DNA of 32,428 nucleotides from Pseudoflavonifractor sp. 524-17 (GTDB taxonomy: Bacteria; Bacillota; Clostridia; Oscillospirales; Oscillospiraceae), in the NCBI RefSeq assembly GCF_009935845.1, contig NZ_QWEK01000041.1, positions 1-32,428 on the forward strand, read 5' to 3'. The notes beneath the pieces were generated by a model. The model saw only the letters and a list, made by a program, of their open reading frames with translations. It did not search any database and was not told the DNA's origin. Below, piece by piece: positions 17,020 to 32,428 of this stretch. The first letter of the stretch is position 1. The number at the start of each line of letters is the position of its first letter. Both the position numbers and the translations under genes were made by a program.

Positions 17020-17048
17020 TTGATTTTGTATTCCAAGAACAGTATGAT
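17020..17048 (+). promoter_or_regulatory. First promoter of the Ter locus
   Basis: -35 TTGATT (17020-17025) and -10 TATGAT (17043-17048) with a 17-base spacer, in an AT-rich stretch. The untranslated leader is about 73 bases. No sigma-B or ECF-type motif was recognised, so regulation of this stress-type locus may act elsewhere. Confidence 0.7.
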
Positions 17049-17127
17049 AAGATGAGAGAAAATAGGGGATATCCATGTATCTTGTCAAACTCAGTCCAAA
17101 ATCAATTCACAAAGGAGTTTAATCGCT

Positions 17128-18276
17128 ATGGAACTGCAAAAGGGACAAAAACTCAAGCTCTCCGATCTCTCCGCCTCTTCCTCCGTCCATATCTCAGTGG
17201 CTGTGACCCTTCCTGCCGGTGAGGCCGATGTGACTTGTTTTGGCGTGGACGCCGCAGGCAAACTCTCCGACGACCGCTACTTTGTCTTTTACAACCAGAC
17301 CAAGTCCCCGGAGGGGGCCATTGAGATGACCAAGTCCGCCGGCGCCACCTCCTTTGCCGTTGACCTGGAGCGGCTCCCCTCCTCCATTCAAAAGCTGGTG
17401 GTCACTGTGGCCATGGACGGCGGCACCATGCGCGACCTGACAAAAGGCAGCCTCTGTCTGGACTGCGGCGGCAGCAAAGCGGACTATGCCTTCGACGGAT
17501 CCGGCTTCCAGCAGGAAAAGGCGCTGATCCTCTGTGAGCTCTACCGCAAGGACAATATCTGGCGCTACTGCGTGGTGGCCAGCGGCTTCAACGGCGGTCT
17601 GTCCGCCCTGCTGGCCCACTTCGGCGGGGAGGAGGTCTCTCCCGCCCCCGCACCCAATCCCGCGCCGGCTCCGGCGCCCGCGCCCCCCAAGGTTAATCTG
17701 AGCAAAATCAGCCTGAAGAAGAGCGGCGAGACCCACAAAATCGACTTGAGCAAAAACGGCGGGGAGATCCATGTCAATCTGAATTGGAACACCGGCCGCA
17801 AGCGGCTCTTCGGCGGCAGCAAGGCGGTGGATCTGGATTTGGCCTGCATGTACCGGCTCAAGGACGGACACCAGGGGGTCATCCAGGCTCTAGGCAACAG
17901 CTTCGGTTCCGCCACCAGCCTGCCCTACATCCTCCTGGACCAGGACGACCGCTCCGGCGCCAGCGCGGGGGGCGAGAATATGTTCTTCAAGCGGCCGGAA
18001 CTCATCGACTTCGCCGTGGTCTTCGCCTATATCTACGAGGGCGTACCCAACTGGCGGGGCACCGACGCCGCGGTGGTCCTCCACCAGCAGGGCTCCCCCG
18101 ACATTGAGATCCGCATCGACAACCCCAATGGCCAGGACCGGTTCTGTGTACTGGCCAGCCTGTCCGCCCGCAGCGGCTCTCTGGAGGTCAAGCGGGAGGA
18201 GCTGTACTTCCCCGGCCACCGGCAGGTAGATGAGCACTATCACTTTGGCTTCCGCTGGGTGGCAGGCCGGAAATAA
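17128..18276 (+). CDS. Two-domain TerD/TerA-family stress protein
   Basis: 382 aa. Residues 1 to about 168 form a TerD-like beta-sandwich (MELQKGQKLKLSD, CFGVDAAGKLSDDRYFVFYNQTKSPEGAI, ILCELYRKDNIWRYCVVASGFNGG). A Pro/Ala linker (about 172-187) follows. The second, TerA-like domain (about 188-382) contains VDLDLACMYRLKDG, LDQDDRSGASAGGENMFF and IEIRIDNPNG. TerD domains bind Ca2+ through acidic loops, and the Asp-rich loops in domain 2 suit this; domain 1 lacks the usual GDNxTGxGxGDDE loop. It is the first gene of the locus. AAAGGAG lies 10 bases before the ATG. Its N-terminal domain closely resembles the gene at 31809. The exact role in tellurite or stress tolerance is unknown. Confidence 0.88.
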   Translation: MELQKGQKLKLSDLSASSSVHISVAVTLPAGEADVTCFGVDAAGKLSDDRYFVFYNQTKSPEGAIEMTKSAGATSFAVDLERLPSSIQKLVVTVAMDGGTMRDLTKGSLCLDCGGSKADYAFDGSGFQQEKALILCELYRKDNIWRYCVVASGFNGGLSALLAHFGGEEVSPAPAPNPAPAPAPAPPKVNLSKISLKKSGETHKIDLSKNGGEIHVNLNWNTGRKRLFGGSKAVDLDLACMYRLKDGHQGVIQALGNSFGSATSLPYILLDQDDRSGASAGGENMFFKRPELIDFAVVFAYIYEGVPNWRGTDAAVVLHQQGSPDIEIRIDNPNGQDRFCVLASLSARSGSLEVKREELYFPGHRQVDEHYHFGFRWVAGRK

Positions 18277-18344
18277 CCGCCCTGGGGGAGAATTTCCGCC
18301 AATTTTAACACTCCGGCATCTATATATGTATGGAGGGCTGCAAT

Positions 18345-19187
18345 ATGGTCTATAACGCAATCGGCACCCGGGAAAATATCAAAATCATCGACTCTGCCCA
18401 GTACGGCGGCGTCAAAATCGACGTGATGGAGTATCAGCGGCTGCTGGGCTCCACCAATCCCTTCTCCGCCTCCGACCTCTATTTTATGGCAAAGCAGAAT
18501 ATCAAGGTGCGGCAGGTGGCCGTCTACCTCACCAAGGACAAGGTCTCCGTGGAGCCCGGCGCCATGAGCTACTTCCAGGGCCCGCTGGAGATGGTCTCCG
18601 GCGTCACCGCCGGCAACGCCCTGGGCCGGCTCTTCTCCGGCGCGGTCACCGGCGAGGGGACCGCCCAGCCTGAGTACAGCGGCAGCGGGATGCTGGTACT
18701 GGAGCCCTCGTTCCAGCACTTTTTGCTCCTCCAGCTGGACCACGAGGACATCGTGGTGGACAAGGGCATGTTCTACTGCGCCCAGGGGAGCGTCACCGTC
18801 AAGCCCATTATGCAGCGCAGCGTCTCCGCCGCCCTGGGCGGCGGTGAGGGCCTGTTCCAGATCTCCCTGTCCGGCACCGGCCTGGTGGTGCTGGAGTGTC
18901 CCGTCCCCTCCTGCGAAATCGATGTGATCGAGCTGAACAACGACACCCTGCGGGTGGACGGAAACTTTGCTGTCCTCCGCTCCGGCAATCTCCAGTTCAC
19001 GGTGGAGCGCTCCGCCAAGACCCTGCTGGGCTCCGCCGTCAGCGGGGAGGGTCTGGTCAACGTCTACCGGGGCACTGGTACCGTCTGGCTGGCCCCCACC
19101 ATCAAGGTGTACAATACCATCAACGCCGCCCGGGCCGTGGGCGGGTCCACCAAGAGTATGAACATGAATACCAGCAACAGCAAATAG
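18345..19187 (+). CDS. AIM24 family protein
   Basis: 280 aa. AIM24-type proteins are beta-rich and related to TRAP-like folds; the yeast member is needed for mitochondrial inner-membrane architecture and the bacterial role is unknown. Glycine-rich, repetitive beta segments are visible: KVSVEPGAMSYFQGPLEM, then GLFQISLSGTGLVVLECPVP and LVNVYRGTGTVWLAPT. The short C-terminal tail is Ser/Asn/Met-rich. The ATG at 18345 has GGAGGG 7 bases upstream; an in-frame ATG at 18330 overlaps that site. AIM24 genes recur in Ter-type loci. It closes the first transcription unit, and a new promoter follows at 19204. Confidence 0.88.
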   Translation: MVYNAIGTRENIKIIDSAQYGGVKIDVMEYQRLLGSTNPFSASDLYFMAKQNIKVRQVAVYLTKDKVSVEPGAMSYFQGPLEMVSGVTAGNALGRLFSGAVTGEGTAQPEYSGSGMLVLEPSFQHFLLLQLDHEDIVVDKGMFYCAQGSVTVKPIMQRSVSAALGGGEGLFQISLSGTGLVVLECPVPSCEIDVIELNNDTLRVDGNFAVLRSGNLQFTVERSAKTLLGSAVSGEGLVNVYRGTGTVWLAPTIKVYNTINAARAVGGSTKSMNMNTSNSK

Positions 19188-19203
19188 GTCAGCCATGTTT
19201 TCA

Positions 19204-19232
19204 TTGTCAAATGATACAAAAAGGGGTATGAT
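19204..19232 (+). promoter_or_regulatory. Second Ter-locus promoter (yceG-like/telA unit)
   Basis: -35 TTGTCA (19204-19209) and -10 TATGAT (19227-19232) with a 17-base spacer. The predicted leader is about 75 bases and contains a hairpin. Confidence 0.7.
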
Positions 19233-19311: not shown

Positions 19312-21636
19312 ATGACTGGCGATACCCGCTTAGAACGCAGTTTTCTCCCCCTGGACCAGCGGCCGGACCGGCGCAGCGTCTTTTTCCGCCTCATCGGGCT
19401 GGACGGGCCGGGGGCCTCTGCGGCGCAGCTGCGGCGTTTTTATCAGCTCACCCAAGGCGGCGGGCTCTGCCTCCGCGCCGGGCTGGACAACCCCGCCGAG
19501 CCGGAGACCGCCCGCTTTTTCGACGCCGCCGGCGCCCAGTTCGCCCTCAGCCGCCCCCTTGTGGAGCGGCACCTCACCGTCTGGCTGGGCCAGCTCCGGC
19601 CCGCCCAGCGGCAGGCGCTGGCCGCTGCGGTGCTCGACGCGCTGGAGCTTCTCAAGGCCCAGGGGGCCAATGAAAATATTATCCGCAACGCCTATATCAA
19701 GTTCATGTGCTGGTTCCGCGCCCCCTTTGGCAAAGTGGTATCCGGCATCGGCAAAAACGTCCCCCCAAAGATTCTCTTTGAAGGGGAGATCTCCCGGTAC
19801 GCCCTGCTGCTGCTCCACATTCTCCACCGGGCCGGCTGTGATGTGTGGTATGTCCATTTTACCTCAGACGCGTCCTATCAGAAGGCGGCCCGGGGGGCGG
19901 ACTTCTCTCAGCTTATTCAGGGCTCCCGGCTCGCTGTGCCGGAGCGGCACTTTGCCGGCCAGGACCCGCCGGTCCCCAGACCCGCGTCCCCAACCGCCCG
20001 GCCGGCTCCCCCGCCCCACCGTTCCGGCGGGGCGAGTCCCCCATCTCCCGCCCGGCCCGCCAACTGCCCGCCCCCCTGGGCGGTGCTGGAGGATGAGGTC
20101 ATCCTCAACACCTGGGTGGGGGACCGGCCCGTGTGGGAGGCCGTTCTCCTCCCCCGGAAGCAGCGGGGAACCGGCGGCGCGGCGCCAAAGCTCTTTACCC
20201 TTTTCGCCCTGTGCTTCGGCGGGGACGAGCGGGGAGCCTACCGCAACCGCCTGTTCCACCTGAAGCGAAAGCTGGACGGCGGCGGCCGCAGGTGGCTGCT
20301 GCTGGAGCAAAAGCCCCCCGCCCCCACGGTGGAGGAGACCCAGCCCTTCCGCGCGGTGGACAAGGGGGACCCCGATCTCACCGCCGTGCTGGCCCAGCGC
20401 CTCGCCCTGGGGCGGGGCCGGGTGCCGGATCTCCTGGCCCAGCGGGCCTTTACCCTGGTGATGCAGGCCAATCCCGAGCGCGACCCCAACCGCCGGTTCA
20501 ACTACGGCGTACGCCTGGCCTGCTGGCTGCGGCGGTACGGCCAGCTGCTCTTCTCCCCCGGCCCGGGCGGGGAGGCCCCGGCGCTGGTCCGGTACGGGCC
20601 GGCGGCGGAGAGCGAGGCCGCCCTGCTGTGGGCCCTGGCCCAGATGGGGGCGGACGTCCTCCTCTTCTCTCCCGACCCCGCCTGCCGGGCGGAGTTTCAG
20701 CACCACTTCCTCCCCCACCACTGGATGGAGGTTCTGTTCGACGGCCAGCTGCCCCTGGAGCCCTTCCCCCAGCGGGAGGAAAAGCTGCGGGCCAGCACCA
20801 CCGCCTACAACGCCTCCCGGGAGCTGGATCACCTGCTCTACAGCGACACCGGCATGTTCCGGGACCGGCAGTTCACCCGCTCTCAGCCCGTCACGCTGAA
20901 GACCACTTATGACGAGGTGGGCCAGCTCTGGCGGGAGGAGGCCCAGTACCGCCCCTCCTTCCGGACCGACCAGGGCGTGGTCTATGTCCCCAACCTCTTC
21001 GCCAAGATCAGCGGCGTGGACAAGGGGGACGCCGCCGCCTATTGGGAGCACATCCGGGGCATGGTCACAGAGGACACCTATCTGGTCACCCAGGTCCCCT
21101 TTCTCCAGACCGGGACCCCTACCATGACAGCGGCCCAGGCCAGGGGCCTCATCCATAACGGCAGGCTGGATCCCAAGGCGGTCAAGGCCTCCAGCACCTA
21201 TCAATACGACCACCTTCCTGATGACACCCAGGACTACATTCTGGAAAAAATACAGGCGCTGATGGACTACGACCTGATCACAGGTCCCGCCGACGGCCTG
21301 CCCGCCGCCATGCTCTGTGTGCTGATGAACCTGGACAAGGAGCTGCTGCGGCTGCTGCAAAACTTTGATTTCACCCGCTCCATTCCAAAATTCCTCATTG
21401 TGGACGTGACGGAGCACGTCTTCACCCGGGAGGAGTGCATTCTGCTGGCTTTTCTCAATCTGGTGGGGTTTGACATCGCGGTCTTTACCCCCACGGGGTA
21501 CCGCAACCTGGAAAAATACCTGCGGCCGGACAGCTTCGACACCCTCACCCTAGGAGAATTTCTCTTTGATCTCACCGTCCCCGACCTGCGCGGCAAACGG
21601 CCCGGCGGCTGGCTGGGCAGGCTCTTCGGCGGCTGA
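19312..21636 (+). CDS. YceG-like Ter-associated protein with internal duplication
   Basis: 774 aa, longer than Bacillus YceG (about 540). The family (a predicted component of the Ter biosynthetic module) has no known activity. Two related blocks are visible: residues 126-187 (NAYIKFMCWFRAPFGKV, PKILFEGEISRYALLLLHIL, RAGCDVWYVHFTSD) and 397-455 (NYGVRLACWLRRYGQLL, ESEAALLWALAQMGADVLLF). They are joined by a Pro-rich linker (about 219-256) and a degenerate middle. The C-terminal third (about 530-774) carries VVYVPNLFAKISGVDKGDA, FTREECILLAFLNLVGFDI and FTPTGYRNLEKYL. The ATG at 19312 has AGGAG 9 bases upstream. telA follows 29 bases later, the yceG-yceH pairing seen in Bacillus. Confidence 0.8.
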   Translation: MTGDTRLERSFLPLDQRPDRRSVFFRLIGLDGPGASAAQLRRFYQLTQGGGLCLRAGLDNPAEPETARFFDAAGAQFALSRPLVERHLTVWLGQLRPAQRQALAAAVLDALELLKAQGANENIIRNAYIKFMCWFRAPFGKVVSGIGKNVPPKILFEGEISRYALLLLHILHRAGCDVWYVHFTSDASYQKAARGADFSQLIQGSRLAVPERHFAGQDPPVPRPASPTARPAPPPHRSGGASPPSPARPANCPPPWAVLEDEVILNTWVGDRPVWEAVLLPRKQRGTGGAAPKLFTLFALCFGGDERGAYRNRLFHLKRKLDGGGRRWLLLEQKPPAPTVEETQPFRAVDKGDPDLTAVLAQRLALGRGRVPDLLAQRAFTLVMQANPERDPNRRFNYGVRLACWLRRYGQLLFSPGPGGEAPALVRYGPAAESEAALLWALAQMGADVLLFSPDPACRAEFQHHFLPHHWMEVLFDGQLPLEPFPQREEKLRASTTAYNASRELDHLLYSDTGMFRDRQFTRSQPVTLKTTYDEVGQLWREEAQYRPSFRTDQGVVYVPNLFAKISGVDKGDAAAYWEHIRGMVTEDTYLVTQVPFLQTGTPTMTAAQARGLIHNGRLDPKAVKASSTYQYDHLPDDTQDYILEKIQALMDYDLITGPADGLPAAMLCVLMNLDKELLRLLQNFDFTRSIPKFLIVDVTEHVFTREECILLAFLNLVGFDIAVFTPTGYRNLEKYLRPDSFDTLTLGEFLFDLTVPDLRGKRPGGWLGRLFGG

Positions 21637-21665: not shown

Positions 21666-22796
21666 ATGGCTCTGAATTACACACCCCGGCAGGACGACAG
21701 CCGTCCCGCCTCCACCACCGACCTGGCCGAACCCAAGCCCTATGACGTGGCCCTCCGCCGCCAGGAGATGAGCCAGACTTTAGTGGGCTCCCAGGAGATC
21801 GACAATCTGGTCAGCCAGATCTGTGTCAACGACCCCCAGACCATCGTCTCCTTCGGCGGCGAGGTGGCGGGGGAGATCGCCAAGTGCTCCGACACCATTC
21901 TCAACAGCGTCAACATGAGCCAGATCAACGACTCCGGCACTTTGCTCAACACCCTGGCCCGCATTATGGACAAGTTCGACATCGAGGAGATTGCCGCCGA
22001 TGAGAAGAAGGGCTTTTTCGGAAAGCTCTTTGGCAATATGCAGCGGCAGCTGGACCAGATCCTGGCCAAGTACCACACCATGGGCGAGGAGGTGGACAAG
22101 GTCTATGTGGAGCTGAAGAAATACGAGGTGGAGATCGGCGAGAGTAACCGCAAGCTCCAGACCATCTTTGACGCCAACGTGGGCTTCTACCAGGACCTGG
22201 TAAAGTATATTCTGGCCGGGGAGCAGGGCCTTCAGGAGATGGACAACTATCTGGCCCAGATGCGCACGGACCTGGAGCAGCGCCCGGACGACCACATGCT
22301 CCAGCTGGACTACAACTCCATGCAGCAGGCCCGCACCATTCTGGAGCAGCGGGTGATGGATCTGCGCATCGCGGAAAACGTGGCCATGCAGTCCATCCCC
22401 ATGATCCAGTCCATGCAGTTCAGCAATCTCAACCTCATCCGCAAGATCAACTCCGCCTTTATCATCACCCTGCCGGTGTTCAAGCAGGCGCTGACTCAGG
22501 CGGTGCTCCTCAAGCGGCAGAAGATTCAGGCTCAGGCCATGGAAGCCCTGGATCAGCGCACCAATGAGATGCTGCTGAAAAACGCCAAAAACACCGCCGA
22601 TCAAGCCAAGCTCACTGCACAGCTGGCCTCCTCCAGCTCCATCAAGGTGGAGACGCTGGAGCAGACCTGGCGCACCATCGTCAACGGCATTGAGGAAACC
22701 CAGCGCATCCAGGCTGACGCCAGCGCCAAGCGCACCGCTGACGCCGCCAAGCTGGAGGCCCTGAAGCAGGACTTCCAGACCCGGGCTCATATGTAA
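21666..22796 (+). CDS. TelA family toxic-anion resistance protein (YceH-like)
   Basis: 376 aa, the usual length of the TelA/KlaA family. Members accompany tellurite and stress loci, but the biochemical role is not known. The protein is almost all helix and coiled coil with no membrane segment: FGGEVAGEIAKCSDTILNSV, KYEVEIGESNRKLQTIFD and the conserved MQSIPMIQSMQFSNLNLIRK. The C-terminus is charged and Ala/Lys-rich. GGAGG lies 8 bases before the ATG. It follows the YceG-like gene closely and precedes three terD genes, an order recalling the Bacillus yceCDEFGH cluster. Confidence 0.93.
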   Translation: MALNYTPRQDDSRPASTTDLAEPKPYDVALRRQEMSQTLVGSQEIDNLVSQICVNDPQTIVSFGGEVAGEIAKCSDTILNSVNMSQINDSGTLLNTLARIMDKFDIEEIAADEKKGFFGKLFGNMQRQLDQILAKYHTMGEEVDKVYVELKKYEVEIGESNRKLQTIFDANVGFYQDLVKYILAGEQGLQEMDNYLAQMRTDLEQRPDDHMLQLDYNSMQQARTILEQRVMDLRIAENVAMQSIPMIQSMQFSNLNLIRKINSAFIITLPVFKQALTQAVLLKRQKIQAQAMEALDQRTNEMLLKNAKNTADQAKLTAQLASSSSIKVETLEQTWRTIVNGIEETQRIQADASAKRTADAAKLEALKQDFQTRAHM

Positions 22797-22865: not shown

Positions 22866-23444
22866 ATGCCTATCAATCTCTCAAAAGGCCAGAAAGTCGA
22901 TTTGACCAAGGGCAACGCCGGTCTGGACGCCATCCTGGCGGGTCTGGGATGGGATACCAATAAGTACGACGGCGGACACGAATTCGACCTGGACGTCTCC
23001 GTCTTTATGACCGGCGAGGGCGGCAAGGTGGAGAGCGACTCCAACTTTGTCTTCTACAACAATCCCAAGGACGCCGCCGGCAGCGTGGTCTACTCCGGCG
23101 ACAACCGCACCGGCGAGGGCGAGGGCGACGACGAGTCTGTCAATATCACCCTGAGCAAGGTCCCCGCCAACGTGCAGAAAATCTCCTTTACCGTCACCAT
23201 TCATGAAGCCGAGGCCAGAGGCCAGAACTTTGGCCAGGTGTCCAACGCCTATATCCGCATTGTGGACATGGCCAAGAACGAAGAGCTGCTGCGCTACGAC
23301 CTGGGCGAGGACTACTCCATCGAGACCGCCATCGTGGTGGGCGAGCTCTACCGCCACGGCAGCGAGTGGAAGTTTGCCGCCATCGGCTCCGGCTTCCAGG
23401 GTGGCCTGGCAGCCCTGTGCAACAACTTCGGGCTGAGCGTCTAA
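22866..23444 (+). CDS. TerD family protein (canonical)
   Basis: 192 aa, standard TerD length. TerD proteins are small cytoplasmic Ca2+-binding beta-sandwich proteins of stress and tellurite systems. [15 protein letters not shown] is the universal start. EFDLDVSVF and [16 protein letters not shown] form the acidic Ca2+-binding loops, and [35 protein letters not shown] and GSGFQGGL complete the family pattern. AAGGAG lies 9 bases upstream. It is preceded by a short 6-bp hairpin (22810-22824) after telA. It is closely related to the gene at 24135, the two sharing nearly identical first codons, which suggests duplication. Confidence 0.95.
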
Positions 23445-23480: not shown

Positions 23481-24089
23481 ATGGCCATTTCCCTGCAAAA
23501 GGGTCAGAAGATCGATCTGAGCAAAAAGGACGGCTCCCAGCTCACCAATCTGGTGGTAGGCCTGGGCTGGAAAGAGGTGCAGAAGTCCGGCGGACTGCTG
23601 GGCCTGTTCAAGCAGAAGGTAGACGTGGACATCGACGCCTCTGTGCTCATGCTGGACGGCAGCGGCCACATCCCCTCCAAGGAGGAGGTCATCTTCTTCA
23701 ACCACAAGGACCACCCCACCGGCTGCGTCCACCACTGCGGGGACAACCTGGTGGGCGGCAAGATGGGCGGCATGGACGACTCCGAGCAGATTCAGGTGGA
23801 CCTGACCCGGGTGCCCTCCCACATTGAGCGCATTGTCTTTGTGGTGAATATCTACGACTGCGTCAAGCGCAAGCAGCACTTCGGCATGGTGCAGGACGCC
23901 TATATCCGCATCATCGACAAGGGCGCCAACGAGACCATCGCCAGCTACAACCTGACGGAGGATTACTCCGGCAAAACTGCCATGATCGTGGGCGAGATCT
24001 ACCGCAATGGGAGCGCCTGGAAGTTCAACGCCATCGGCCAGCCCGGCTATGAGCCCGGCATCGCCGATCTGGTGCGCAAATATACCTAA
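23481..24089 (+). CDS. TerD family protein (divergent paralogue)
   Basis: 202 aa, TerD fold. MAISLQKGQKIDLSKKDG opens it, VDIDASVLML holds the first acidic site and NFHAIG-type strands end it (WKFNAIGQPGYEPG). It differs from its two neighbours: an insertion, SGGLLGLFKQK, after strand 2, and the canonical GDNxTGxGxGDDE loop changed to GDNLVGGKMGGMDDSEQ and preceded by VHHC. Altered or different metal binding is therefore possible. It resembles the YceC/TerZ-like branch. The gene lies 36 bases from the previous terD and 45 from the next, in one transcription unit. Confidence 0.9.
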   Translation: MAISLQKGQKIDLSKKDGSQLTNLVVGLGWKEVQKSGGLLGLFKQKVDVDIDASVLMLDGSGHIPSKEEVIFFNHKDHPTGCVHHCGDNLVGGKMGGMDDSEQIQVDLTRVPSHIERIVFVVNIYDCVKRKQHFGMVQDAYIRIIDKGANETIASYNLTEDYSGKTAMIVGEIYRNGSAWKFNAIGQPGYEPGIADLVRKYT

Positions 24090-24134: not shown

Positions 24135-24707
24135 ATGCCTATCAATCTCTCCAAAGGTCAGAAAATCAACCTGAGCAAGGAGGCCCCTAATCTGAAGGTG
24201 GCTCTGGTGGGCCTGGGCTGGGACATCAAGCAGTACGACAGCGGCGCGGACTACGACCTGGACGCCTCCATCTTCCTGCTGGACGCCAGCGGAAAATGCG
24301 CCCACGATTCTGACTTCATTTTCTACAACAACCTGTCCGCCGGCGGCGTGACCCACTCCGGCGACAACCGCACCGGCGAGGGCGACGGCGACGACGAGGC
24401 CATCACCATTGAGTTCGACAAGGTCCCCTCCTACGTGGAGAAGATTGCCGTCACCGTCACCATCTACGACGCGGTGGCCCGGGGCCAGAACTTTGGCCAG
24501 GTATCCAACGCCTTTGTCCGTCTGGTGGACACCCAGAGCGGCGCGGAGCTGCTGCGCTTCGACCTGGGGGAGGACTACTCCACCGAGACCGCCATTGTCT
24601 TCGCGGAAATCTACCGCCACAACGGCGAGTGGAAGTTCTCCGCCGTGGGCTCCGGCTTCAACGGCGGGCTGGAGGCCCTGTGCCGCGCCTACGGCCTGGA
24701 CGTATAA
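24135..24707 (+). CDS. TerD family protein (canonical)
   Basis: 190 aa. [31 protein letters not shown] and [16 protein letters not shown] give the standard Ca2+-binding TerD pattern, followed by [36 protein letters not shown] and GSGFNGGL. An excellent ribosome-binding site (GAGGAGG, 8 bases before the ATG) suggests high expression. A strong hairpin (24724-24760) follows and may lower transcription into the enzyme genes downstream. Confidence 0.95.
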   Translation: MPINLSKGQKINLSKEAPNLKVALVGLGWDIKQYDSGADYDLDASIFLLDASGKCAHDSDFIFYNNLSAGGVTHSGDNRTGEGDGDDEAITIEFDKVPSYVEKIAVTVTIYDAVARGQNFGQVSNAFVRLVDTQSGAELLRFDLGEDYSTETAIVFAEIYRHNGEWKFSAVGSGFNGGLEALCRAYGLDV

Positions 24708-24723: not shown

Positions 24724-24760
24724 GTCCCCCATGGGGCCGGAACGCCGGCCCATGGGGGAC
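24724..24760 (+). terminator. Strong hairpin between terD and the enzyme block (partial terminator or attenuator)
   Basis: GTCCCCCATGGG-CCGG (24724-24740, one bulged G) pairs with CCGGCCCATGGGGGAC (24745-24760): 16 bp with a 4-base loop. Only TCTTCC follows rather than a T run, so full termination is unlikely. RNA stabilisation or partial read-through control is more likely. Confidence 0.5.
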
Positions 24761-24789: not shown

Positions 24790-25926
24790 ATGAACTATTT
24801 TGACTATCTGTCCCCCGGCGACCGGAACAGCCTCTTCTTCCTGCCCCCCGCCCCCTTTGATCGGGACACCGAACGGGACATCCTGCGGGACGCGGTGGGG
24901 GGACTGCTCTACCTGCCGGGCGGCAATCCCAACATTGCCCACATCATCCGCAGCGGAAAGATCCGGGGACTCACCTCCATGGCCCTGTGTCTGGAGGACG
25001 CCGTGGGGGACGCCCAGCGGGAGCAGGCCGCAGAAAACACCTTGAACCAGCTCGCTTTGCTGGCACAGGCCGTGGCCTGGGGGGCCCTGCCCCGGGAGCG
25101 GCTCCCCCTTCTCTTTGTCCGAGTGGAGAGCAGCCGGATGCTGGAGCGTCTGGCGGAGGACTTTGCGGCCTGTGCCGGTGTCCTCACCGGCGTCATTCTT
25201 CCTAAAGTCACCGGGGAGACCCTGGAACGGGGCCTCTCCCTCACCGCCGCCATTGCCGCGGACAGCGGCGTCCCCTTCTACGCCATGCCCATTCTGGAGT
25301 CCGCCGCACTCATGGACTGCCCCGACCGGCTGGCGCTTCTCCGGAGTCTGAAGGAAATTACGGATCGCTATGCCGGCCGCGTTCTCAATATCCGCATCGG
25401 CGCCACCGACCTGTGCGGCCTCTGCGGCATCCGCCGGGGGGTGGACACCACCGCCTACCAGGTCGCCGTCCTGTCCAGCTGTATCGCCGACATTGTGCGG
25501 GTCTTTGCCTTCCAGGACGCCTACACCGTCAGCGGCCCGGTGTGGGAGTTCTACAGCGCCCTGGCCCGCTCCCGGGCCTTGCAGAGCTGGAGCGAGGTCA
25601 ACGGCCTGCTGGAGGAGGTCCGGCTGGATCTCCAAAACGGCATTCTGGGCAAGACCTGCATCCACCCCACCCAGCTCCTGCCCGTGCAGGCCAGCTATGC
25701 GGTGCCCTTCGAGGCCTACCACGACGCCCGCTCGATTCTGGAGGTGGACCGGGGACAGACCGGAGTAACGGCCAGCGCCCGCCGCAACAAGATGAATGAA
25801 TGCAAGCCCCATACCCTCTGGGCCCGGAAGATACTCCGCCGGGCCGGGATCTACGGCGTCTATCAGGAGCACACGGACACCGCCGGTCTGATTCGGGCCG
25901 TATCTCAGGGAGGATGTTATGAATAG
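24790..25926 (+). CDS. HpcH/HpaI (CitE-like) TIM-barrel C-C bond lyase of the Ter module
   Basis: 378 aa. Related to citrate-lyase beta chain and HpcH/HpaI aldolases, which cleave or form C-C bonds using a divalent metal. Visible features: YLPGGNPNIAHII, ALCLEDAVGD (acidic residues 69-70), LFVRVES, AMPILESAALMD (probable metal-ligand Glu), and IRIGATDLCGLCGIRRGVDTTAYQ (Asp of the metal site). GKTCIHPTQLLPVQ near the C-terminus is CitE-like. This is the lyase of the predicted Ter biosynthetic module; its substrate is unknown. AGGGAG lies 9 bases before the ATG. It overlaps the next gene by 8 bases and opens a four-overlap coupled block through 31792. Confidence 0.88.
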   Translation: MNYFDYLSPGDRNSLFFLPPAPFDRDTERDILRDAVGGLLYLPGGNPNIAHIIRSGKIRGLTSMALCLEDAVGDAQREQAAENTLNQLALLAQAVAWGALPRERLPLLFVRVESSRMLERLAEDFAACAGVLTGVILPKVTGETLERGLSLTAAIAADSGVPFYAMPILESAALMDCPDRLALLRSLKEITDRYAGRVLNIRIGATDLCGLCGIRRGVDTTAYQVAVLSSCIADIVRVFAFQDAYTVSGPVWEFYSALARSRALQSWSEVNGLLEEVRLDLQNGILGKTCIHPTQLLPVQASYAVPFEAYHDARSILEVDRGQTGVTASARRNKMNECKPHTLWARKILRRAGIYGVYQEHTDTAGLIRAVSQGGCYE

Positions 25927-27187
25927 ACAAGCCTATACCACCGCGCTGGGGGACAGCCTCACCGTAACGCTGGAGTTGGAGCCGCCCAAATTCGGCCTCG
26001 CCCCGGAGGACCTGTTTGCCCTGGCCATGCGGCGCAATCCCAACCGCCCCTTTCTCTTTGTCAGCAAGGTGCTGGGCAAGCACCTCCCCATCCGCCCGGC
26101 GGTGCTGCCGGCGGCAGGAAAGCTGCTCTCTCTGGCCCTGGAGGGGGCCAACGAACCCGGCCCGTGGGCTGGGATCATCAAGGGCGCCGGCGCGCGCCCC
26201 TTTCCGGCCCTCATGGACGAGCTGGAGCGGACCCAGATTGTCTTGGGACCGGAGGAGCGCACTCTCTTTGTGGGCTTCGCGGAGACCGCCACCGGACTGG
26301 GACAGGCGGTGGCCGCCTGCTACGCCGGGGAGAGCGCCTACCTCTCCACCACCCGCTTCCCCCTGGAAGGGATGTTTACCCTCACCTTTGACGAGTCCCA
26401 CTCCCACGCCAAAACCCAGCTGCTCCACTTCGCCTACGGCGGCCGTTTTCCCAGCCAGTGCAGCCGGGCCGTCATCATAGACGACGAGTTTACCACCGGC
26501 GACACCGCCCTGAAGCTGGTGGAGGTCCTCCACCGGCAATTCCAGATCAAACGCTTTGTCCTCCTGTCCATCCTGGACTGGTCCGGCGGCGCCAGCCGCC
26601 AGGCCCTGGCGGACCGGCTGGGGGTGGAGATTCAGGCGGTCTCCCTTCTCCGGGGCGCCATCCGGCAGGTGGAGCAGGGCCCCGTGCCCCAGACCGCCCT
26701 GGAGGATCTCCGGGGCGCCGGCTGTCCCAACGCCGGCTTTTACGCCATCCTGGACGGCCCGCCCCGGCCTACGTCGGGACGCACCCTGCTCTCCGCCCAG
26801 GAACAGGCGGAGCAGCGGCGCTCCTGCGCCCAGCTGGCCAAGCTCCTGGGCAGCCGGGGGGACGACGCCCTGTTTTTGGGGACAGGGGAGTTTATTTACG
26901 CCCCCGCCCTCATCGCCGGGTACTGCGGGGCCACCGCCTTCCACTCCACCACCCAGAGCCCCATCTACCCCCTGGCCGGCTCCGCTGTCACCTGCGGCGC
27001 CTGCTTTGAACCCCCGGACCGGTACAGCCCCGCAGGCTATCTCTACGAGATCCCCCGGGGCCGGTACCGCCAGGCGGTGATTCTGGTGGAGAGCGCTGCC
27101 CTTCCCCACAGCATAAAGGGCATCAGCCAGCTGGCCCACTGGCTCAGGGGCCGGGGCTGTGAGCATGTGGAGGTGACGCCCCTGTGA
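25919..27187 (+). CDS. Ter-module phosphoribosyltransferase with TRSP domain
   Basis: 422 aa. An orotate-PRTase-like domain (about 1-270) with the PRPP-binding loop VIIDDEFTTGDT at residues 185-196 and a probable pyrophosphate loop GFAETATGLG at 119-128. A C-terminal TRSP-type domain (about 300-422) carries DALFLGTGEFIYAPALIAGY, FHSTTQSPIYP and SIKGISQLAHW. The family is predicted to make an N- or C-glycosidic bond between ribose-5-phosphate and a base-like group in a nucleoside-like Ter metabolite; no product has been shown here. The ATG at 25919 has GGAGG 5 bases upstream and lies inside the end of the lyase gene. A GTGA overlap links it to the next gene. Confidence 0.88.
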   Translation: MNRQAYTTALGDSLTVTLELEPPKFGLAPEDLFALAMRRNPNRPFLFVSKVLGKHLPIRPAVLPAAGKLLSLALEGANEPGPWAGIIKGAGARPFPALMDELERTQIVLGPEERTLFVGFAETATGLGQAVAACYAGESAYLSTTRFPLEGMFTLTFDESHSHAKTQLLHFAYGGRFPSQCSRAVIIDDEFTTGDTALKLVEVLHRQFQIKRFVLLSILDWSGGASRQALADRLGVEIQAVSLLRGAIRQVEQGPVPQTALEDLRGAGCPNAGFYAILDGPPRPTSGRTLLSAQEQAEQRRSCAQLAKLLGSRGDDALFLGTGEFIYAPALIAGYCGATAFHSTTQSPIYPLAGSAVTCGACFEPPDRYSPAGYLYEIPRGRYRQAVILVESAALPHSIKGISQLAHWLRGRGCEHVEVTPL

Positions 27188-28299
27188 CCGCTCCCGCCCC
27201 TTTGACTCCGCCGGGCAGTTTTTCTCCCGATGACGTTACCTTGCTCCTCAAAGATGTCACCGGCCTGGTGCAGGAGCGCCCCACCCCCCAGCGGGAGCGG
27301 GAGATCCAGGCCGGACGGCACTACTCTGAGGATTTGCCCATTGAGCAGGTGCCCAGCAACGCCTATCTGGCCCTCTTCCGCCGGCTGATGGACACCCAGC
27401 TCCCCCTGGTGGCCCGTTACACCGGCATTCTCACCCGGCTGGTGCTGGAGCGGTATCCCAATCCGGTTCTGGTCTCTCTGGTCCGGGCCGGCACCCCCTG
27501 CGGGGTGCTCATGCGGCGGTACGCCGCCCGGGAGCTGGGGGCGGATCTGCCCCACTACGGGGTGAGCATTATCCGGGGCAAGGGCTTTGACGAAAACGCC
27601 CTGTCTTACCTTCTGGCCCGCCATCCCGGCCGCCCGGTAGTCTTTGTGGACGGCTGGACCGGAAAGGGCATGATCACCCGGGAGCTGGCCCAGTCCTGCC
27701 GGGACTACAACCAGCGGCACGGCAGCGCCCTCCAGCCGGTTCTGGCGGTGCTGGCCGACCCCGCCCACTCCACTGAGCTCTGCGCCACCCGCGCGGACTT
27801 CATCAACCCCTCCTGCTGTCTCAACAGCACCATATGCGGCCTTATCAGCCGCACGGTTCACAATGAGGGGCTGATCGGCCCCCATGACTTCCACGGGGTA
27901 CGGGTTTACCGGGAATTCGCCTCTATGGACCAGACCGCCGCCTATCTGGACGGAGTGTGCCGCTGGTTCGCCCCCCTTCGGGGGGAGATTTCCGCCGGCT
28001 TTGCGGCCGTCCGCCGCCTGGACCGCGCCCCGGACTGGAGCGGTATGGCCGCGGTGGAGCGCATTGGGGCGGAATTTGGCATCTCCGATCTCAACCGCAT
28101 CAAGCCCAGCATCGGGGAGGCCACCCGGGTGCTGCTGCGCCGGGTGCCGGACCGGATCCTGCTCCGGGAGGAGAACCACCCGGACGCGGCCCACATTCTT
28201 TTTCTGGCCCGGGAGCGGGGCGTGCCCGTGACGGTGTACCCCAGCATGCCCTATCTCTGCTGCGGCCTCATCGCGGATCGGAGGGGGGCGCAGCCGTGA
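27184..28299 (+). CDS. StiP-type phosphoribosyltransferase with PELOTA-like RNA-binding domain
   Basis: 371 aa, GTG start at 27184 overlapping the previous stop by 4 bases. A PRTase domain covers about 45-290, with the characteristic HYSEDLPIEQVPS, a pyrophosphate loop SLVRAGTPCG (98-107) and PRPP-loop-like VFVDGWTGKG (153-162). The C-terminal PELOTA-like domain (about 298-371) has RIKPSIGEATRVLLRRVPDR and PVTVYPSMPYLCCGLI. Databases often call this family 'cysteine protease StiP', although the fold is a PRTase; PCCLNS-like cysteines at NPSCCLNS may underlie that name. It is the second PRTase of the Ter module. It overlaps the HAD gene by 4 bases. Confidence 0.88.
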   Translation: MTAPAPLTPPGSFSPDDVTLLLKDVTGLVQERPTPQREREIQAGRHYSEDLPIEQVPSNAYLALFRRLMDTQLPLVARYTGILTRLVLERYPNPVLVSLVRAGTPCGVLMRRYAARELGADLPHYGVSIIRGKGFDENALSYLLARHPGRPVVFVDGWTGKGMITRELAQSCRDYNQRHGSALQPVLAVLADPAHSTELCATRADFINPSCCLNSTICGLISRTVHNEGLIGPHDFHGVRVYREFASMDQTAAYLDGVCRWFAPLRGEISAGFAAVRRLDRAPDWSGMAAVERIGAEFGISDLNRIKPSIGEATRVLLRRVPDRILLREENHPDAAHILFLARERGVPVTVYPSMPYLCCGLIADRRGAQP

Positions 28300-29087
28300 T
28301 TTTTTCTGCCGACCTGGACCGCACCCTCATCTTCTCCCCGCGCAGGCTGGACCCTCTGGGGCCCGCAACGATCCCGGTGGAGCGGCGGCAGGGAGCGCCC
28401 TGCGGCTTTATGACGCCGGAGGCCCGGCGCGCGCTTATGGCCCTGTCCGCCCGCGCCACCTTTTTCCTCAACACCCTGAGAGGGCTGGAGCAGGCCAACC
28501 GGGTGGACTTTGTGTCTGAGGGCCGGTGCAGATATCTGGCCCTGCAAAACGGGCTCTCCCTCTACCGGGACGGGGTGGAGGACAGGGACTGGGCGGCGTA
28601 TGTCAAGCGCACGGTGTCCGCCCTCCCCCTGGATCTCACCGGGGGGATTGAGCGGGTGCTCCGGCATCTGCCTGGGATTGAGTGCCTGTCCAAGCGGTAC
28701 CAGTATCTGGCCGTCTTCTTTGTGGAGGAGGCCCTCTTTGACGGCGGCGCCTGTGATATGCTGGCCGGCGAGCTGGCCGGACTGGGGTGGGCGCTGTGCC
28801 GCCAGCGAAAAAAGCTCTACCTCTCTCCACAGCCCATCCACAAGGGGGCCGTTCTGGCCCGGGTCCGGGAGCGCGAGGACGGGGCGGAGGCCGTGGGCTT
28901 TGGGGATTCCGGGTTCGACCTGCCCATGCTGCGCGCCTGCCGCACCGCCTGGTCCCTCCGGGACTGCGACCTCTGGGGGCGGGACTGGGGCTTTCCCATC
29001 CAGTACTCCTCCGCCCCCGCCCAGGCCGGGACGCAAGAGGTTCTGCAACGTATCTTATCAAATTTAGGAGATCAAAAACTATGCTGA
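28296..29087 (+). CDS. HAD-superfamily phosphatase of the Ter module
   Basis: 263 aa, GTG start at 28296 (GTGA overlap with the StiP-type gene; G-rich ribosome-binding site upstream). HAD motif I is FSADLDRTLIFS with nucleophile D6 and acid D8; the Lys motif is PIHKGAVL and motif IV is GFGDSGFDLPML. The cap region between is of the Cof/sucrose-phosphatase type. The predicted role is removal of a phosphate from the PRTase product, giving a free nucleoside-like molecule; this is inferred from neighbours. It overlaps the calcium ATPase gene by 7 bases, so synthesis of enzyme and pump is probably coupled. Confidence 0.88.
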   Translation: MIFSADLDRTLIFSPRRLDPLGPATIPVERRQGAPCGFMTPEARRALMALSARATFFLNTLRGLEQANRVDFVSEGRCRYLALQNGLSLYRDGVEDRDWAAYVKRTVSALPLDLTGGIERVLRHLPGIECLSKRYQYLAVFFVEEALFDGGACDMLAGELAGLGWALCRQRKKLYLSPQPIHKGAVLARVREREDGAEAVGFGDSGFDLPMLRACRTAWSLRDCDLWGRDWGFPIQYSSAPAQAGTQEVLQRILSNLGDQKLC

Positions 29088-31792
29088 AAAACCATGAAAT
29101 CAACGCCCTGACGGAACAGCAGGCGGAGGAGAGCCGCAAGGCCCACGGCAGCAACGCCCTCACCCCGCCGGAGCAGTCCTCCTTCTGGCAGGAGCTGTGG
29201 GAGACCTTCCGCGGGGACGCCCTCATCCGCATTCTCACCGTGGCGCTTATTATCACCGTTGTCTTCGCCATCATCGGTGTGGGCGACTGGCTGGAGGCCG
29301 TGGGCATCGCCATCGCTGTGGTGCTGGCCACCGCCGTGTCCACCTACAGCGAATACTCCAACAACCAGCTCTTTCAAAAGCTCCAGGACGAGTACTCCAA
29401 GATTCTCTGCAAGGTCTTCCGCAGCCGGGAGGGCCAGGTTCAGGTGTGCAATCTGAAGATCGACGAGATCGTCACCGGAGATTACGTCCTCCTCCAGGCC
29501 GGCGACAAGGTGTGCGCCGACGGCTTCCTCGTTGACGGCGAGATCAAGGTCAATCAGGCCAGCCTCAACGGCGAGAGCGAGGAGGCCAAAAAGTCCGCCG
29601 CCCCCGCAGACTACTGCTACACCCCCGACCAAGTGGATTTTCTCGATGTCCACAAAGTATACCGGGGCTCCGTCGTCACCACCGGCGAGGCCATTATGCA
29701 GGTCAGATGCGTGGGCGACCACTCCCAGTTCGGCCGTCTGGCCCAGGAGCTGAAAGAAGACGAGGAGCGGGAATCCCCCCTGAAGGTAAAGCTCGGCAAG
29801 GTGGCTGACGCCATCTCCCGCTTTGGCTATATCGGCGGCGCCCTGATTGCCATTGCCTTCTTCATCAACTGCGCCTTCTTTACGCCCACTTTGATCAACG
29901 GCGCCGCCTCCTATTTCTCCGGGGCCAATGTGATGCAGATCCTCCGGGATCTGGTGTCCTCGGTCACTCTGGCGGTGGTTATTATCGTGGTGGCCGTCCC
30001 CGAGGGCCTGCCCATGATGATCGCCCTGGTCTCCGGCCTGAACATGAAAAAGCTGCTCAAGGATAACATCCTTATCCGGGAGATCGACGGCGCCGAGACC
30101 GCTGGCAGCCTGAACATCCTCTTCTCGGACAAGACCGGCACCATCACCAAGGGCGCCCTCCAGGTGGTGGACTTCATCTCTCCCCAGGGGAAGGAGTTCC
30201 AGCGCTTTGACGCCATTCCCGCCCCCCTGCGGGAGATGCTGCTCATCAATATCTGCGGCAACACCAACGCCGTGGCCCTGGTGAATCACGGCAAGCTCCA
30301 GGTCACCGGCGGCAACGCCACTGAGCGGGCCCTCCACGAATTCACCGGGGCAGAGGGGACCCAGGCCTATGAGTCCCTCCAGCTGGAGTGTACCGACAGC
30401 CTGATGTTCAACAGCGCCAACAAGTACTCCGCCAGCACCATGGCCGGCAAGCTGAACAAGACTATCGTCAAAGGCGCGCCGGAGAAACTGCTGGCCAACT
30501 GCACCAGCTACTATGATGAAAACCTCCAGATCCACCCCCTCACCGACGCCGTCCGCGCCGATCTGGACGCCCACATGGCCGCCCTGTCGGAGAAGGCTAT
30601 GCGGGTACTCGCCTTCGCCACGTCGGACCAGCCCATCGGGGACAGCCTGCTTCAGAACATGACCTTTGTGGGTCTGGTGGGCATCCGGGACGAGCTGCGT
30701 CCTGAAGCTGTGGAGGCCATCCGCACCGCCAAGCGGGCGGGCATTCAGGTGGTCATGGTCACCGGCGATAAAAAGGAGACCGCCGCCGCCATCGCCCGGG
30801 ATGCCAAGCTCATTGACGCCACGGACGATCTGGCTCTCACCAGCGAGGATCTGGCAGCCCTGTCCGACGAGGAGCTGAAGAAAATTCTTCCCCGGCTGCG
30901 GGTGGTGGCCCGTGCCCTGCCCACGGACAAGAGCCGTCTGGTCCGGGTTTCTCAGGAGCTCAACCTTGTCGTCGGCATGACTGGCGACGGCGTCAACGAC
31001 GCCCCCGCGCTGAAAAAGGCCGACGTGGGCTTCGCCATGGGATCCGGCACCGAGGTCTCCAAGGAGGCCGCCGAGATCACCATTCTGGACGACAACTTTA
31101 ACTCCGTAGTGAAAACCGTCCTCTACGGCCGCACTATTTACAACAATATCCGCAAGTTCATCGTCTTCCAGCTCACCATCAACATCAGCGCCGTGCTCAT
31201 CGCCCTCATCGGCCCCTTCCTGGGCATGGGCACCCCCCTGTCTGTCACCCAGATGCTGTGGGTGAACATCGTTATGGACACTCTGGCCGCCCTGGCGCTG
31301 GGTGGTGAGCCCGCCCTGGACCGCTATATGGACGAAAAGCCCAAGCGCCGGGACGAGTCCATCATCAGCAAAAATATGTGGTCCTCTCTGCTCACTACGG
31401 GCCTCTACCTCACTGGGGCCAGCCTGGTCTTCCTGCTGCACCCCTTCTTCCAGACTCTGTTCCGCGCCGACGGCGCCGTGGTCTACGAGGGGCACGATAT
31501 CTACTTTATGACCGGCTTCTTCTGCTTCTATGTCCTCAGCGCCATGCTCAACGGCTTCAATGTCCGCACCGAGAAGCTCAACGTGCTGGACAACGTGGGC
31601 CAGAACAAAATGTTCCTGTACGTGATGGGACTGATCGCCGTGATCCAGGTGCTGATGACCTTCATCGGCGGCGCCATCCTCCGCACCGCGCCCCTTACCG
31701 TCAATGAGTGGGGAGTTGTTGTTCTCCTCTCCCTTATCATTCTGCCGGTGGGCACCCTGCGCAAGCTGATCTTCCCCGAAAAACACGCCTGA
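29081..31792 (+). CDS. PMCA-type calcium-translocating P-type ATPase
   Basis: 903 aa, a full type IIB P-ATPase that expels Ca2+ from the cytoplasm by ATP hydrolysis. An N-terminal cation-ATPase domain is followed by TM1-2 (about 48-90), the actuator motif NGESEE (normally TGES), TM3-4 with VAVPEGLPM (Ca2+ site), the phosphorylation motif SDKTGTIT with D350, the nucleotide site IVKGAPEKLL, the hinge TGDGVNDAPALKKADVG and TM5-10 with NIVMDTLAALAL in TM6. No calmodulin-like tail is present. AGGAG lies 10 bases before the ATG; it overlaps the HAD gene by 7 bases and lies 16 bases before another terD gene. The pairing with Ca2+-binding TerD proteins suggests Ca2+ control within the Ter system. Confidence 0.94.
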   Translation: MLKNHEINALTEQQAEESRKAHGSNALTPPEQSSFWQELWETFRGDALIRILTVALIITVVFAIIGVGDWLEAVGIAIAVVLATAVSTYSEYSNNQLFQKLQDEYSKILCKVFRSREGQVQVCNLKIDEIVTGDYVLLQAGDKVCADGFLVDGEIKVNQASLNGESEEAKKSAAPADYCYTPDQVDFLDVHKVYRGSVVTTGEAIMQVRCVGDHSQFGRLAQELKEDEERESPLKVKLGKVADAISRFGYIGGALIAIAFFINCAFFTPTLINGAASYFSGANVMQILRDLVSSVTLAVVIIVVAVPEGLPMMIALVSGLNMKKLLKDNILIREIDGAETAGSLNILFSDKTGTITKGALQVVDFISPQGKEFQRFDAIPAPLREMLLINICGNTNAVALVNHGKLQVTGGNATERALHEFTGAEGTQAYESLQLECTDSLMFNSANKYSASTMAGKLNKTIVKGAPEKLLANCTSYYDENLQIHPLTDAVRADLDAHMAALSEKAMRVLAFATSDQPIGDSLLQNMTFVGLVGIRDELRPEAVEAIRTAKRAGIQVVMVTGDKKETAAAIARDAKLIDATDDLALTSEDLAALSDEELKKILPRLRVVARALPTDKSRLVRVSQELNLVVGMTGDGVNDAPALKKADVGFAMGSGTEVSKEAAEITILDDNFNSVVKTVLYGRTIYNNIRKFIVFQLTINISAVLIALIGPFLGMGTPLSVTQMLWVNIVMDTLAALALGGEPALDRYMDEKPKRRDESIISKNMWSSLLTTGLYLTGASLVFLLHPFFQTLFRADGAVVYEGHDIYFMTGFFCFYVLSAMLNGFNVRTEKLNVLDNVGQNKMFLYVMGLIAVIQVLMTFIGGAILRTAPLTVNEWGVVVLLSLIILPVGTLRKLIFPEKHA

Positions 31793-31808
31793 TAAGGGGG
31801 ATTTTTCC

Positions 31809-32428
31809 ATGCTGGATTTTTTACGCGGACAGAAGGCCTCCCTCTCCGCCCTGTGCGGCGGGCTGGAGCTGGAGGCAGAACTCTTCCACTCTGCCCCGGT
31901 GGAGATTGACGTGACCTGCTTCTGTCTGGACAGCGACGGGCGACTTTCTGACGAGCGCTATTTTGTCTTCTACAATCAGACCCAGACCCCGGAGGGCGCC
32001 GTCCGCCTGGAGGCGGGCAGCGCCTCCGGCGCATACCGGTTCCACCTCCGGCTGGACCAGCTCCCCGCCCACATCCACAAGCTCTCCTTTACCGCCTCTA
32101 TCGACGGCACCCGCACCATGCAGGAGCTGAAAAAGGGGTATGTCCGCCTGCTGGCCGGCGGTGAGGAGGCAGGCCGCTTCTCCTATGACGGCAGCCAGTT
32201 CTCCGCCGAGCGGGCCCTTGTGGTGTGCGAGATCTACCGCAAGGGGACGGACTGGCGCTTCAACGCCGTGGGCCGGGGATTCAACGGCGGCCTGAAGGCC
32301 CTGGTGGAGAGCTTCGGCGGCACCGTGGCCTCTCCCGCACCCGCCAATCCCGCCGGATCCGCCGGCCGGCGTCCCCCGCCGCCCCCCGCCCCCGGCCGGC
32401 CCTGCACCGCGCCCCCCTCCGGGACCCC
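31809..32428 (+). CDS. TerD-family protein, 3' end beyond window (probably TerA-like two-domain)
   Basis: 206 codons are seen with no stop before the window ends. Residues 1 to about 173 form a TerD-like domain: MLDFLRGQKASLSAL, CFCLDSDGRLSDERYFVFYNQTQTPEGAV, LVVCEIYRKGTDWRFNAVGRGFNGG. A Pro/Gly/Ala-rich linker begins after that, as in the two-domain gene at 17128, whose first domain it resembles closely. A second TerA-like domain is therefore likely to the right. AAGGGGG lies 8 bases before the ATG. The gene lies 16 bases after the calcium pump and extends the operon. Confidence 0.85.
   Translation, partial: MLDFLRGQKASLSALCGGLELEAELFHSAPVEIDVTCFCLDSDGRLSDERYFVFYNQTQTPEGAVRLEAGSASGAYRFHLRLDQLPAHIHKLSFTASIDGTRTMQELKKGYVRLLAGGEEAGRFSYDGSQFSAERALVVCEIYRKGTDWRFNAVGRGFNGGLKALVESFGGTVASPAPANPAGSAGRRPPPPPAPGRPCTAPPSGT

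Follow-up and report, generated by a model that had tools for sequence, protein, structure and literature searches.

A stretch of 32,428 nucleotides, which constitutes the whole of contig 73 (NZ_QWEK01000041.1) in the 3.72 Mb genome (96% complete) of Pseudoflavonifractor sp. 524-17 and is referred to here as the window, carries from position 17128 to its end a Ter stress locus of 13 genes lying in tandem and in the same direction. These encode, in order, a long TerD/TerA-type protein, AIM24, a YceG_bac protein, TelA, three short TerD proteins, a CitE-like lyase, a phosphoribosyltransferase (PRTase) of the PRTase_2 type with a TRSP domain, a PF11202 ("StiP") protein with a PELOTA domain, a HAD-type phosphatase, a Ca2+ ATPase and a second long TerD protein. 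The locus looks like a variant Ter system that has no TerC and in which a Ca2+ pump takes the place of that transporter, since the pump follows TerD across genomes, no TerC was detected in the genome and none of the loci was seen with both. The case is judged evenly balanced for a horizontally spread Ter stress locus in which a Ter core and an enzyme module are joined by a Ca2+ pump that stands in TerC's place and controls TerD-bound Ca2+. The Ter system and its enzyme module are already known; Anantharaman, Iyer and Aravind (2012), as cited by later papers, reportedly put forward both the PRTase/HAD module and a metal-sensing role for Ter systems. In the portions of the literature searched, a scope that left outside the 2012 Ter study and most subscription papers, no text was found that describes a Ca2+ ATPase as belonging to bacterial Ter loci.

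Association of the pump with TerD

Genomes were sampled at the level of the family (200) and of the class (291), the window's own genome being included in both. StiP loci were additionally collected from a species collection (the best 80 of 542 loci) and a viral collection (two loci), giving a total of 82; L029 and L034 of the 80 are loci also taken from genomes G189 and G182. PF11202 and TerD were present in the identical 11 of the 200 family genomes, distributed over 9 of 106 genera, and two same-genus genomes had neither; the chance of such an identical set would be 1/C(200,11) = 2.6e-18 when relatedness is ignored. Within the class sample, TerD was detected in 10 of 291 genomes and PF11202 in 8, all 8 being among the 10. 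TerD lies within the flanks of 52 of the 82 StiP loci and is absent from those of the remaining 30, but for 28 of these 30 it is encoded elsewhere in the genome or record (in G497, only as a fragment at a contig end). Thus, StiP is accompanied by TerD in 80 of the 82 loci at the genome or record level, and the possibility that the enzyme module occurs without TerD was rejected. An earlier note on this DNA, made from its letters alone, had expected that these genes belong together and that the set would recur in other genomes, which is what these distributions show.

To identify pumps in the loci, a profile was derived from the pumps of the window and of the family. The 52 StiP loci with TerD divide into 32 with a Ca2+ ATPase, 5 with TerC and 15 with neither. 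The pump was found in none of the 30 StiP loci without TerD, against the 32 of 52 with it (Fisher p = 2.5e-9, relatedness not removed), and the sole weak ATPase match in TerD-less loci (L075, 92 bits) is, by its sequence, a heavy-metal-type ATPase. When the TerD genes located apart from StiP were considered, using 40 TerD stretches from all of the 28 genomes but G497 and the viral record G518, the pump stood beside TerD in 21 of 26 genomes. Of the ten genomes of the class sample that encode TerD, seven carry the pump within the Ter locus and one carries TerC in it; the other two have neither. Genome G316 carries the order YceG-TelA-TerD-TerD-TerD-pump, and no PF11202 match was obtained in its genome. 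Considering the absence of the pump from all 30 TerD-less loci, its presence beside distant TerD genes in 21 of 26 genomes and the G316 locus with a pump and no PF11202, the pump keeps company with the Ter core and not with the enzymes.

The Ca2+ ATPase

The pump gene (29081..31792, plus strand) encodes a protein of 903 amino acids that, from its motifs and profile scores, is a PMCA-like (P2B) Ca2+ ATPase with one predicted Ca2+ site. Its score with the PMCA-type model TIGR01517 is 590.9 bits against a cut-off of 507.05, as would be expected from the PMCA type assigned in the earlier note, and it falls well below the model of PMR1-type Ca2+ pumps (412.9 against a cut-off of 798.3). The catalytic DKTGT motif, the PEGLP motif in M4 and an alanine at the acidic position of M5 are found in 43 of 43 Ter-linked rows of the alignment, which include two pairs of identical rows. 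The combination of PEGLP in M4 with no acidic residue in M5 is the one-Ca2+-site pattern of PMCA. The C-terminal regulatory tail of eukaryotic PMCA is absent from the window's pump, whose membrane domain match reaches residue 898 of 904 of the scanned frame; to our knowledge, bacterial PMCA-like members likewise lack this tail. At the position of the A-domain TGES motif (pump residues 163-166), 41 of the 43 Ter-linked rows have NGE[A/S/T/N], 25 of them NGEA, and two have TGES, while NGES occurs in 10 of 12 rows of the pump clade that are not Ter-linked.

The window's pump is an extra copy, since another Ca2+ ATPase is encoded on contig 106 of the same genome. A quickly built tree of 57 P-type ATPases placed a branch between the 37 Ter-linked sequences, all on one side, and the 20 others of the family genomes; the support of this branch in the Shimodaira-Hasegawa-like approximate likelihood ratio test (SH-aLRT) was 96, and the tree carried long-branch warnings. 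An ATPase of a distant lineage (35% identical) adjoins the TerD genes of G476, which suggests that pumps were recruited into Ter loci more than once, the placement of this ATPase in the tree being uncertain. The ATPase of the same-family genome G182 is identical to that of Flavonifractor sp. An82.

Absence of TerC and points against replacement

TerC (PF03741) gave no match in the window's own genome, 96% complete as noted, in nine locus-bearing relatives or in two same-genus genomes without the locus; the same model matched in 9 of 14 control genomes. TerC and the pump occurred together in 0 of 82 loci. G366, the sole TerD genome of the class sample with TerC, has it inside the Ter locus, and the pump is absent there. 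Bacilli account for four of the five TerC loci, and the remaining one is on a contig with a StiP that clusters with that of Klebsiella. In an actinobacterial plasmid locus whose gene order is otherwise similar, a DUF475 protein is encoded amid the Ter genes; it scores 56 bits against the TerC cut-off of 27.8 and is, therefore, a TerC relative. The position of the pump beside TerD proteins, at the place that TerC holds in better-known bacteria, suggests that the Ter systems considered here handle calcium.

Several observations weigh against a Ca2+ pump that replaces TerC as a dedicated partner of TerD. The replacement is confounded with ancestry, and because the division between TerC and pump partly follows clades, it is a reading and not a proof. 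The 15 of 52 TerD loci with neither TerC nor pump (several of them truncated) belong here, as do several loci in which only a pump fragment is present and the circumstance that other Ca2+ ATPases score 450-600 bits with the pump profile, by which alone many of the pumps were called. No pump was found in the examined TerD stretches of G489, G490, G492, G500 and G517 (5 of 26), of which those of G492 and G517 end at contig ends, and G490 has further TerD sites outside the examined stretches. After the addition of 29 class ATPases to give a tree of 86 rows, the pump clade comprised 54 rows, 42 Ter-linked and 12 unlinked; 11 of these 12 had no Ter gene within stretches of 7.6-19.5 kb, the remaining one (L116) is almost the same as L115, and the unlinked rows share the M5 alanine of the Ter-linked ones. 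The Ca2+ specificity of the pump is itself a prediction from family and motifs. Additionally, in the gut Jug phages, the gene directly upstream of the ATPase is described in PMC12363816 as coding for a small protein without homologues and not for TerD.

The proposal that the Ter-linked pumps form one exclusive clade, which was true in the 57-row tree, was abandoned since it fails in the 86-row tree (four changes).

Organization of the Ter core and neighbouring features

The earlier note had recognized the gene families and a head-to-tail set of eleven complete genes and a partial one. The families were borne out by Pfam and NCBIfam in all cases but the HAD protein and the head-to-tail arrangement stands, while the count has to be corrected to 12 complete genes and one partial TerD gene, inside which the contig ends at 32428. 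The five TerD/TerA-type proteins that it had listed all match PF02342 and are accompanied by TelA (PF05816), as found in Ter systems. All genes of the locus lie on the plus strand. The first encodes the long TerD/TerA-type protein (17128..18276, 382 aa, 105.7 bits) and is followed by those for the AIM24 family protein (18330..19187, 285 aa, PF01987 134.6 bits), the YceG_bac protein (19312..21636, 774 aa, PF14266 240.5 bits in three stretches) and TelA (21666..22796, 376 aa, 327.6 bits). The three short TerD genes are located at 22866..23444 (192 aa, 278.1 bits), 23481..24089 (202 aa, 230.5 bits) and 24135..24707 (190 aa, 264.5 bits), and the long TerD gene truncated by the contig end at 31809..32428 (125.1 bits; its length is 458 aa in G030 and 465 aa in G056).

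The acidic loops of TerD are associated with Ca2+ binding. According to the alignment, they are kept in the TerD proteins of 22866 and 24135, retained in part in that of 23481 and absent from the long proteins of 17128 and 31809. Consequently, the description of these proteins as Ca2+-binding, also made in the earlier note, fits at most three of the five. No ATP-grasp protein (PF15632) was found among the 13 genes, but the contig stops within the locus, and, of the 82 related loci, 15 contain an ATP-grasp cluster. Frequent companions of other Ter loci are rhomboid proteins and trypsin-like peptidases that match YceG weakly at the N-terminus, in clusters of 11 and 9 loci (L069, L073, L081, L084, L086, L090, L094 and others).

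Upstream of the first gene, a consensus scan located a promoter-like site, TTGATT-17-TATGAT (17020..17048, plus strand, 9 of 12 matches), which is weak because the stretch contains six such sites and shuffled sequences 3.2 +/- 1.9. Directly upstream of the Ter locus, on the opposite strand, lie a sigma-54 (RpoN) and a DUF4230 gene (14693-16907). The Rfam scan of the window returned tRNAs only, and five tRNA genes (Lys, Gln, His, Arg, Gly) are found on the minus strand at 250-779, near the opposite contig end.

The enzyme module and the fold of StiP

The four members of the lyase/PRTase/PRTase/HAD module of Ter systems, which the earlier note had recognized, are all present. The CitE-like C-C bond lyase (C-C_Bond_Lyase; 24790..25926, 378 aa) matches PF15617 with 320.1 bits, and the PRTase_2 protein with TRSP (25919..27187, 422 aa; PF15609 and PF12500) carries the phosphoribosyl pyrophosphate (PRPP) motif IIDDEFTTGDT, in which D189, E190, T193 and T196 are invariant across 56 rows. 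The second PRTase-like protein (27184..28299, 371 aa) combines PF11202 with PELOTA_1 (PF15608). The HAD-type phosphatase (28296..29087, 263 aa) had no Pfam or NCBIfam match and was assigned by a DxD motif (DLDRT) at its start, by weak similarity to PDB entries for trehalose and mannosyl-3-phosphoglycerate phosphatases (E 1.4e-4 to 0.023) and by its conserved place in related loci. In four genomes (L237, L241, L246 and L251, with L080, L083, L091 and L096) the module is divided, the lyase and first PRTase adjoining TerD and the pump, and PF11202 and HAD being located elsewhere. An S-adenosylmethionine-dependent methyltransferase (PF04445) directly precedes the lyase in four Selenomonadales loci and is found upstream of the Ter genes in two loci of Bacilli (L039, L041, L042, L061, L104, L108).

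No solved structure similar by sequence at E 0.1 was found for either of the two putative PRTases, and both were modelled with AlphaFold2, reaching mean confidence scores (pLDDT) of 94.1 for the 25919 protein (56 aligned rows) and 95.6 for the 27184 protein (60 aligned rows). The Foldseek matches of the former are adenine/xanthine PRTases (APRT/XPRT; best E 2.8e-5, probability 1.00) and those of the latter HGPRT/PyrR (best E 1.2e-4, probability 1.00); for both, TM-scores were modest (about 0.4-0.6 for the targets), but the matches were uniform. These models support the view that both proteins have PRTase-like folds, as the published prediction has it and as the earlier note had assumed in naming a TRSP-type and a PELOTA-type PRTase.

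The alternative that the PF11202 protein is a cysteine protease, in which case the module would contain one PRTase only and no two-PRTase pathway, is considered very improbable. It agrees with the name "cysteine protease StiP" given in Pfam and NCBI, with the conservation of Cys212 in at least 90% of 60 rows together with an invariant His237 and Asp249, and with the modest PRTase matches of the model, whose target TM-scores reached about 0.4-0.56. Nevertheless, among the 50 matches listed of 1407, 46 are PRTase-family chains (some identified from shortened titles) and four are 5-aminolevulinate synthase, with no protease among these 50, and the PRTase-like matches therefore speak against the protease name. 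A variant PRPP loop, VDGWTGKG, between the strand 152-158 and the helix 163-179, stands in place of the usual motif with two acidic residues. Because of this loop and the conserved Cys, His and Asp, the protein may have a second activity besides that of a PRTase. Among 72,556 plasmid records, 2,568 contain PF11202 relatives; 1,684 of these records are predicted to be conjugative, and most come from Klebsiella, Escherichia, Enterobacter and Salmonella. Of the 20 matches listed, 18 are named "cysteine protease StiP". Caution is advisable with this widespread plasmid label, given the PRTase fold of the model.

Gene overlaps and hairpins

The four consecutive start/stop overlaps described in the earlier note (25919-25926, 27184-27187, 28296-28299 and 29081-29087) are all present, and a ribosome-binding-like AGGAG precedes the pump start at 29081. 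However, its proposal that these overlaps bind the enzymes and the pump into one unit does not hold in general. The overlap of HAD and pump genes is a local feature, seen in four of five readable loci of the window type (G000, G056, G363 and G480, and not in G030), and in the species scan the pump directly follows the HAD gene in 0 of 32 pump-bearing loci, so that a general coupling of enzymes and pump by overlaps was rejected. Additionally, the Ter genes are separated from the enzyme genes by a long GC-rich hairpin with no T run (24724..24760, plus strand) that follows the last short TerD gene and precedes the lyase gene, the junction folding at -44.0 kcal/mol. Hairpins of different sequence occupy the same Ter/enzyme junction in G030, G056 and G050, and a weaker one is present in G363 and G480.

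When the loci were compared, strong hairpins (z >= 4) were found at 39 of 85 junctions between the core, pump/TerC and enzyme parts versus 12 of 120 junctions within one part, and, for gaps of 60-130 bases, at 29 of 53 versus 9 of 30 (p = 0.04); only 3 of the 39 strong between-part hairpins have a T run. For this statistic, which was devised after the window's hairpin had been noticed and rests on related loci, the near-duplicates L030, L047 and L194 were dropped and L029 and L034 excluded. The hairpins would fit RNA processing or a separate expression of the core, pump/TerC and enzyme parts.

Spread and origin

The window's arrangement was recognized in six genomes (G000, G030, G056, G050, G363 and G480) of five genera and two families. 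It is spread over contigs in G056 and G050, and in G363 and G480 the long first TerD is encoded elsewhere, the examined stretch stopping at YceG. Pump identity amounts to 84-87% between genera (G050 contributing a fragment) and 79% to the other family. By comparison, the genome's second Ca2+ ATPase reaches 71-73% identity with its best within-genus matches, and SMC identities are 61% (G030), 65-66% (same genus) and 43% (G363). The patchy distribution of the locus, together with a pump identity above this genomic background, suggests horizontal transfer, to which stronger constraint on the pump could contribute in appearance. Divergence within the locus is greatest for the lyase, the first PRTase and YceG (43-63%, versus 77-96% for the three short TerD proteins). 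The PF11202 tree placed the window type (five rows) outside a clade of 50 rows comprising most gut Clostridia loci, its deep branches being poorly resolved.

The TelA of G030 (L026 7928-8935) is 49% identical to that of the window, compared with 82% for G050 and 73% for G363, which suggests a replacement or a damaged gene. Two unverified GenBank records named "Bacteriophage sp." (MT836648.1 and MT840059.1; L212 and L213) contain Ter genes and a Ca2+ ATPase. A reading of the open frames of MT836648 also revealed chromosomal-looking genes, and because of this resemblance to a bacterial chromosome the two records are weak evidence for carriage by phages. The pump was found in 0 of the 2 loci on viral contigs.

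Comparison with known Ter loci

The Ter locus of the Klebsiella pneumoniae plasmid NZ_CP106891 shares with the window the TerD proteins, a long TerA-type protein, a PRTase, HAD, PF11202 and an HpcH/CitE-like lyase. It has, as features of its own, TerB, TerC, TerW and ATP-grasp in two opposed operons and, unlike the window, no pump, TelA or YceG in a 25 kb stretch. The Tsukamurella tyrosinosolvens plasmid NZ_LR134456 has AIM24, a long TerD and further TerD proteins, followed by CitE-PRTase-StiP-HAD-long TerD in the order of the window, with a StiP 51% identical; it differs in having DUF475 and in having no pump, TelA or YceG within 21 kb. The Ter loci of Flavonifractor and other members of the same family (L019-L025) contain TerD proteins, pump, PRTase, StiP and HAD, with YceG and TelA in six of seven. 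Their pump, however, is located between the TerD proteins and the PRTase in six of seven and comes first in L022, their enzymes are 25-47% identical to those of the window, and CitE is on the opposite strand (L019) or outside the stretch. According to PMC12363816, gut Jug phages have terD genes and, in most genomes, a gene for a Ca2+ P-type ATPase, in this case described as separate features. TerD paralogues of Clostridioides difficile are made faster under metronidazole, according to PMC6262375. The C. difficile and Jug phage data fit a link between Ca2+ and Ter, and are no proof of it.

Proposed function and alternatives

The joint working of the Ter membrane complex and the predicted metabolite is described as unclear in PMC8115787. 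The anatomy of the window's locus was observed directly, and a model can be drawn upon it in which the ion, the compound and the stress are those that we infer. Its first part would be a Ter core at the membrane, formed by the TerD proteins, TelA, YceG and AIM24; its second, the lyase, the two PRTases and HAD, would make a nucleotide- or nucleoside-like compound; and its third would be the PMCA-like Ca2+ ATPase, standing where enterobacteria and Bacilli have TerC. Envelope damage, caused by phage entry, pore-forming or membrane-active agents, or redox or metal stress, would raise cellular Ca2+, which the TerD proteins with acidic loops could bind, and the pump would then lower Ca2+ again and so end the response. 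The compound made by the enzymes might act as a second input, read by TerD-type proteins or by the TelA/YceG core.

A different possibility, regarded as rather unlikely, is that the pump removes from the cell a divalent metal that is toxic or in surplus (Mn2+, Zn2+ or Cd2+), the locus then serving against metal stress and the pump doing TerC's metal job. TerC proteins are tied to Mn2+ in PMC10550928, and the TerC of K. pneumoniae to Zn2+, Mn2+ and phage resistance in PMC12054061, and the pump does occupy the position that TerC has elsewhere; the profile scores, however, favour a Ca2+ pump of the PMCA type, with TIGR01517 above its cut-off and the PMR1-type model far below. It is also conceivable, and quite improbable in our estimation, that the locus serves mainly as an island against phages or plasmids, the PRTase product being an alarm signal and the pump merely limiting ion leakage. 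Such a role would be in agreement with the patchy distribution and the signs of transfer, and a defence role for the Ter system is proposed in PMC7824862 and PMC5512222, but no effector nuclease or other killing domain was found by Pfam among the 13 genes, no defence library having been searched.

If a Ca2+ pump in TerC's place does control TerD-bound Ca2+, a transporter that follows TerD at TerC's position would provide Ter systems with a specific and testable ion, Ca2+, and with a defined partner. More broadly, it is put forward only tentatively, and with considerable doubt, that the Ter systems of gut Clostridia, Negativicutes and their relatives may be Ca2+-signalling modules, in which TerD proteins would serve as sensors, a PMCA-like pump, recruited more than once, would set and reset the signal instead of TerC, and the PRTase module would add a nucleotide-like messenger, so that calcium and nucleotide signalling would be joined in stress response or phage defence.

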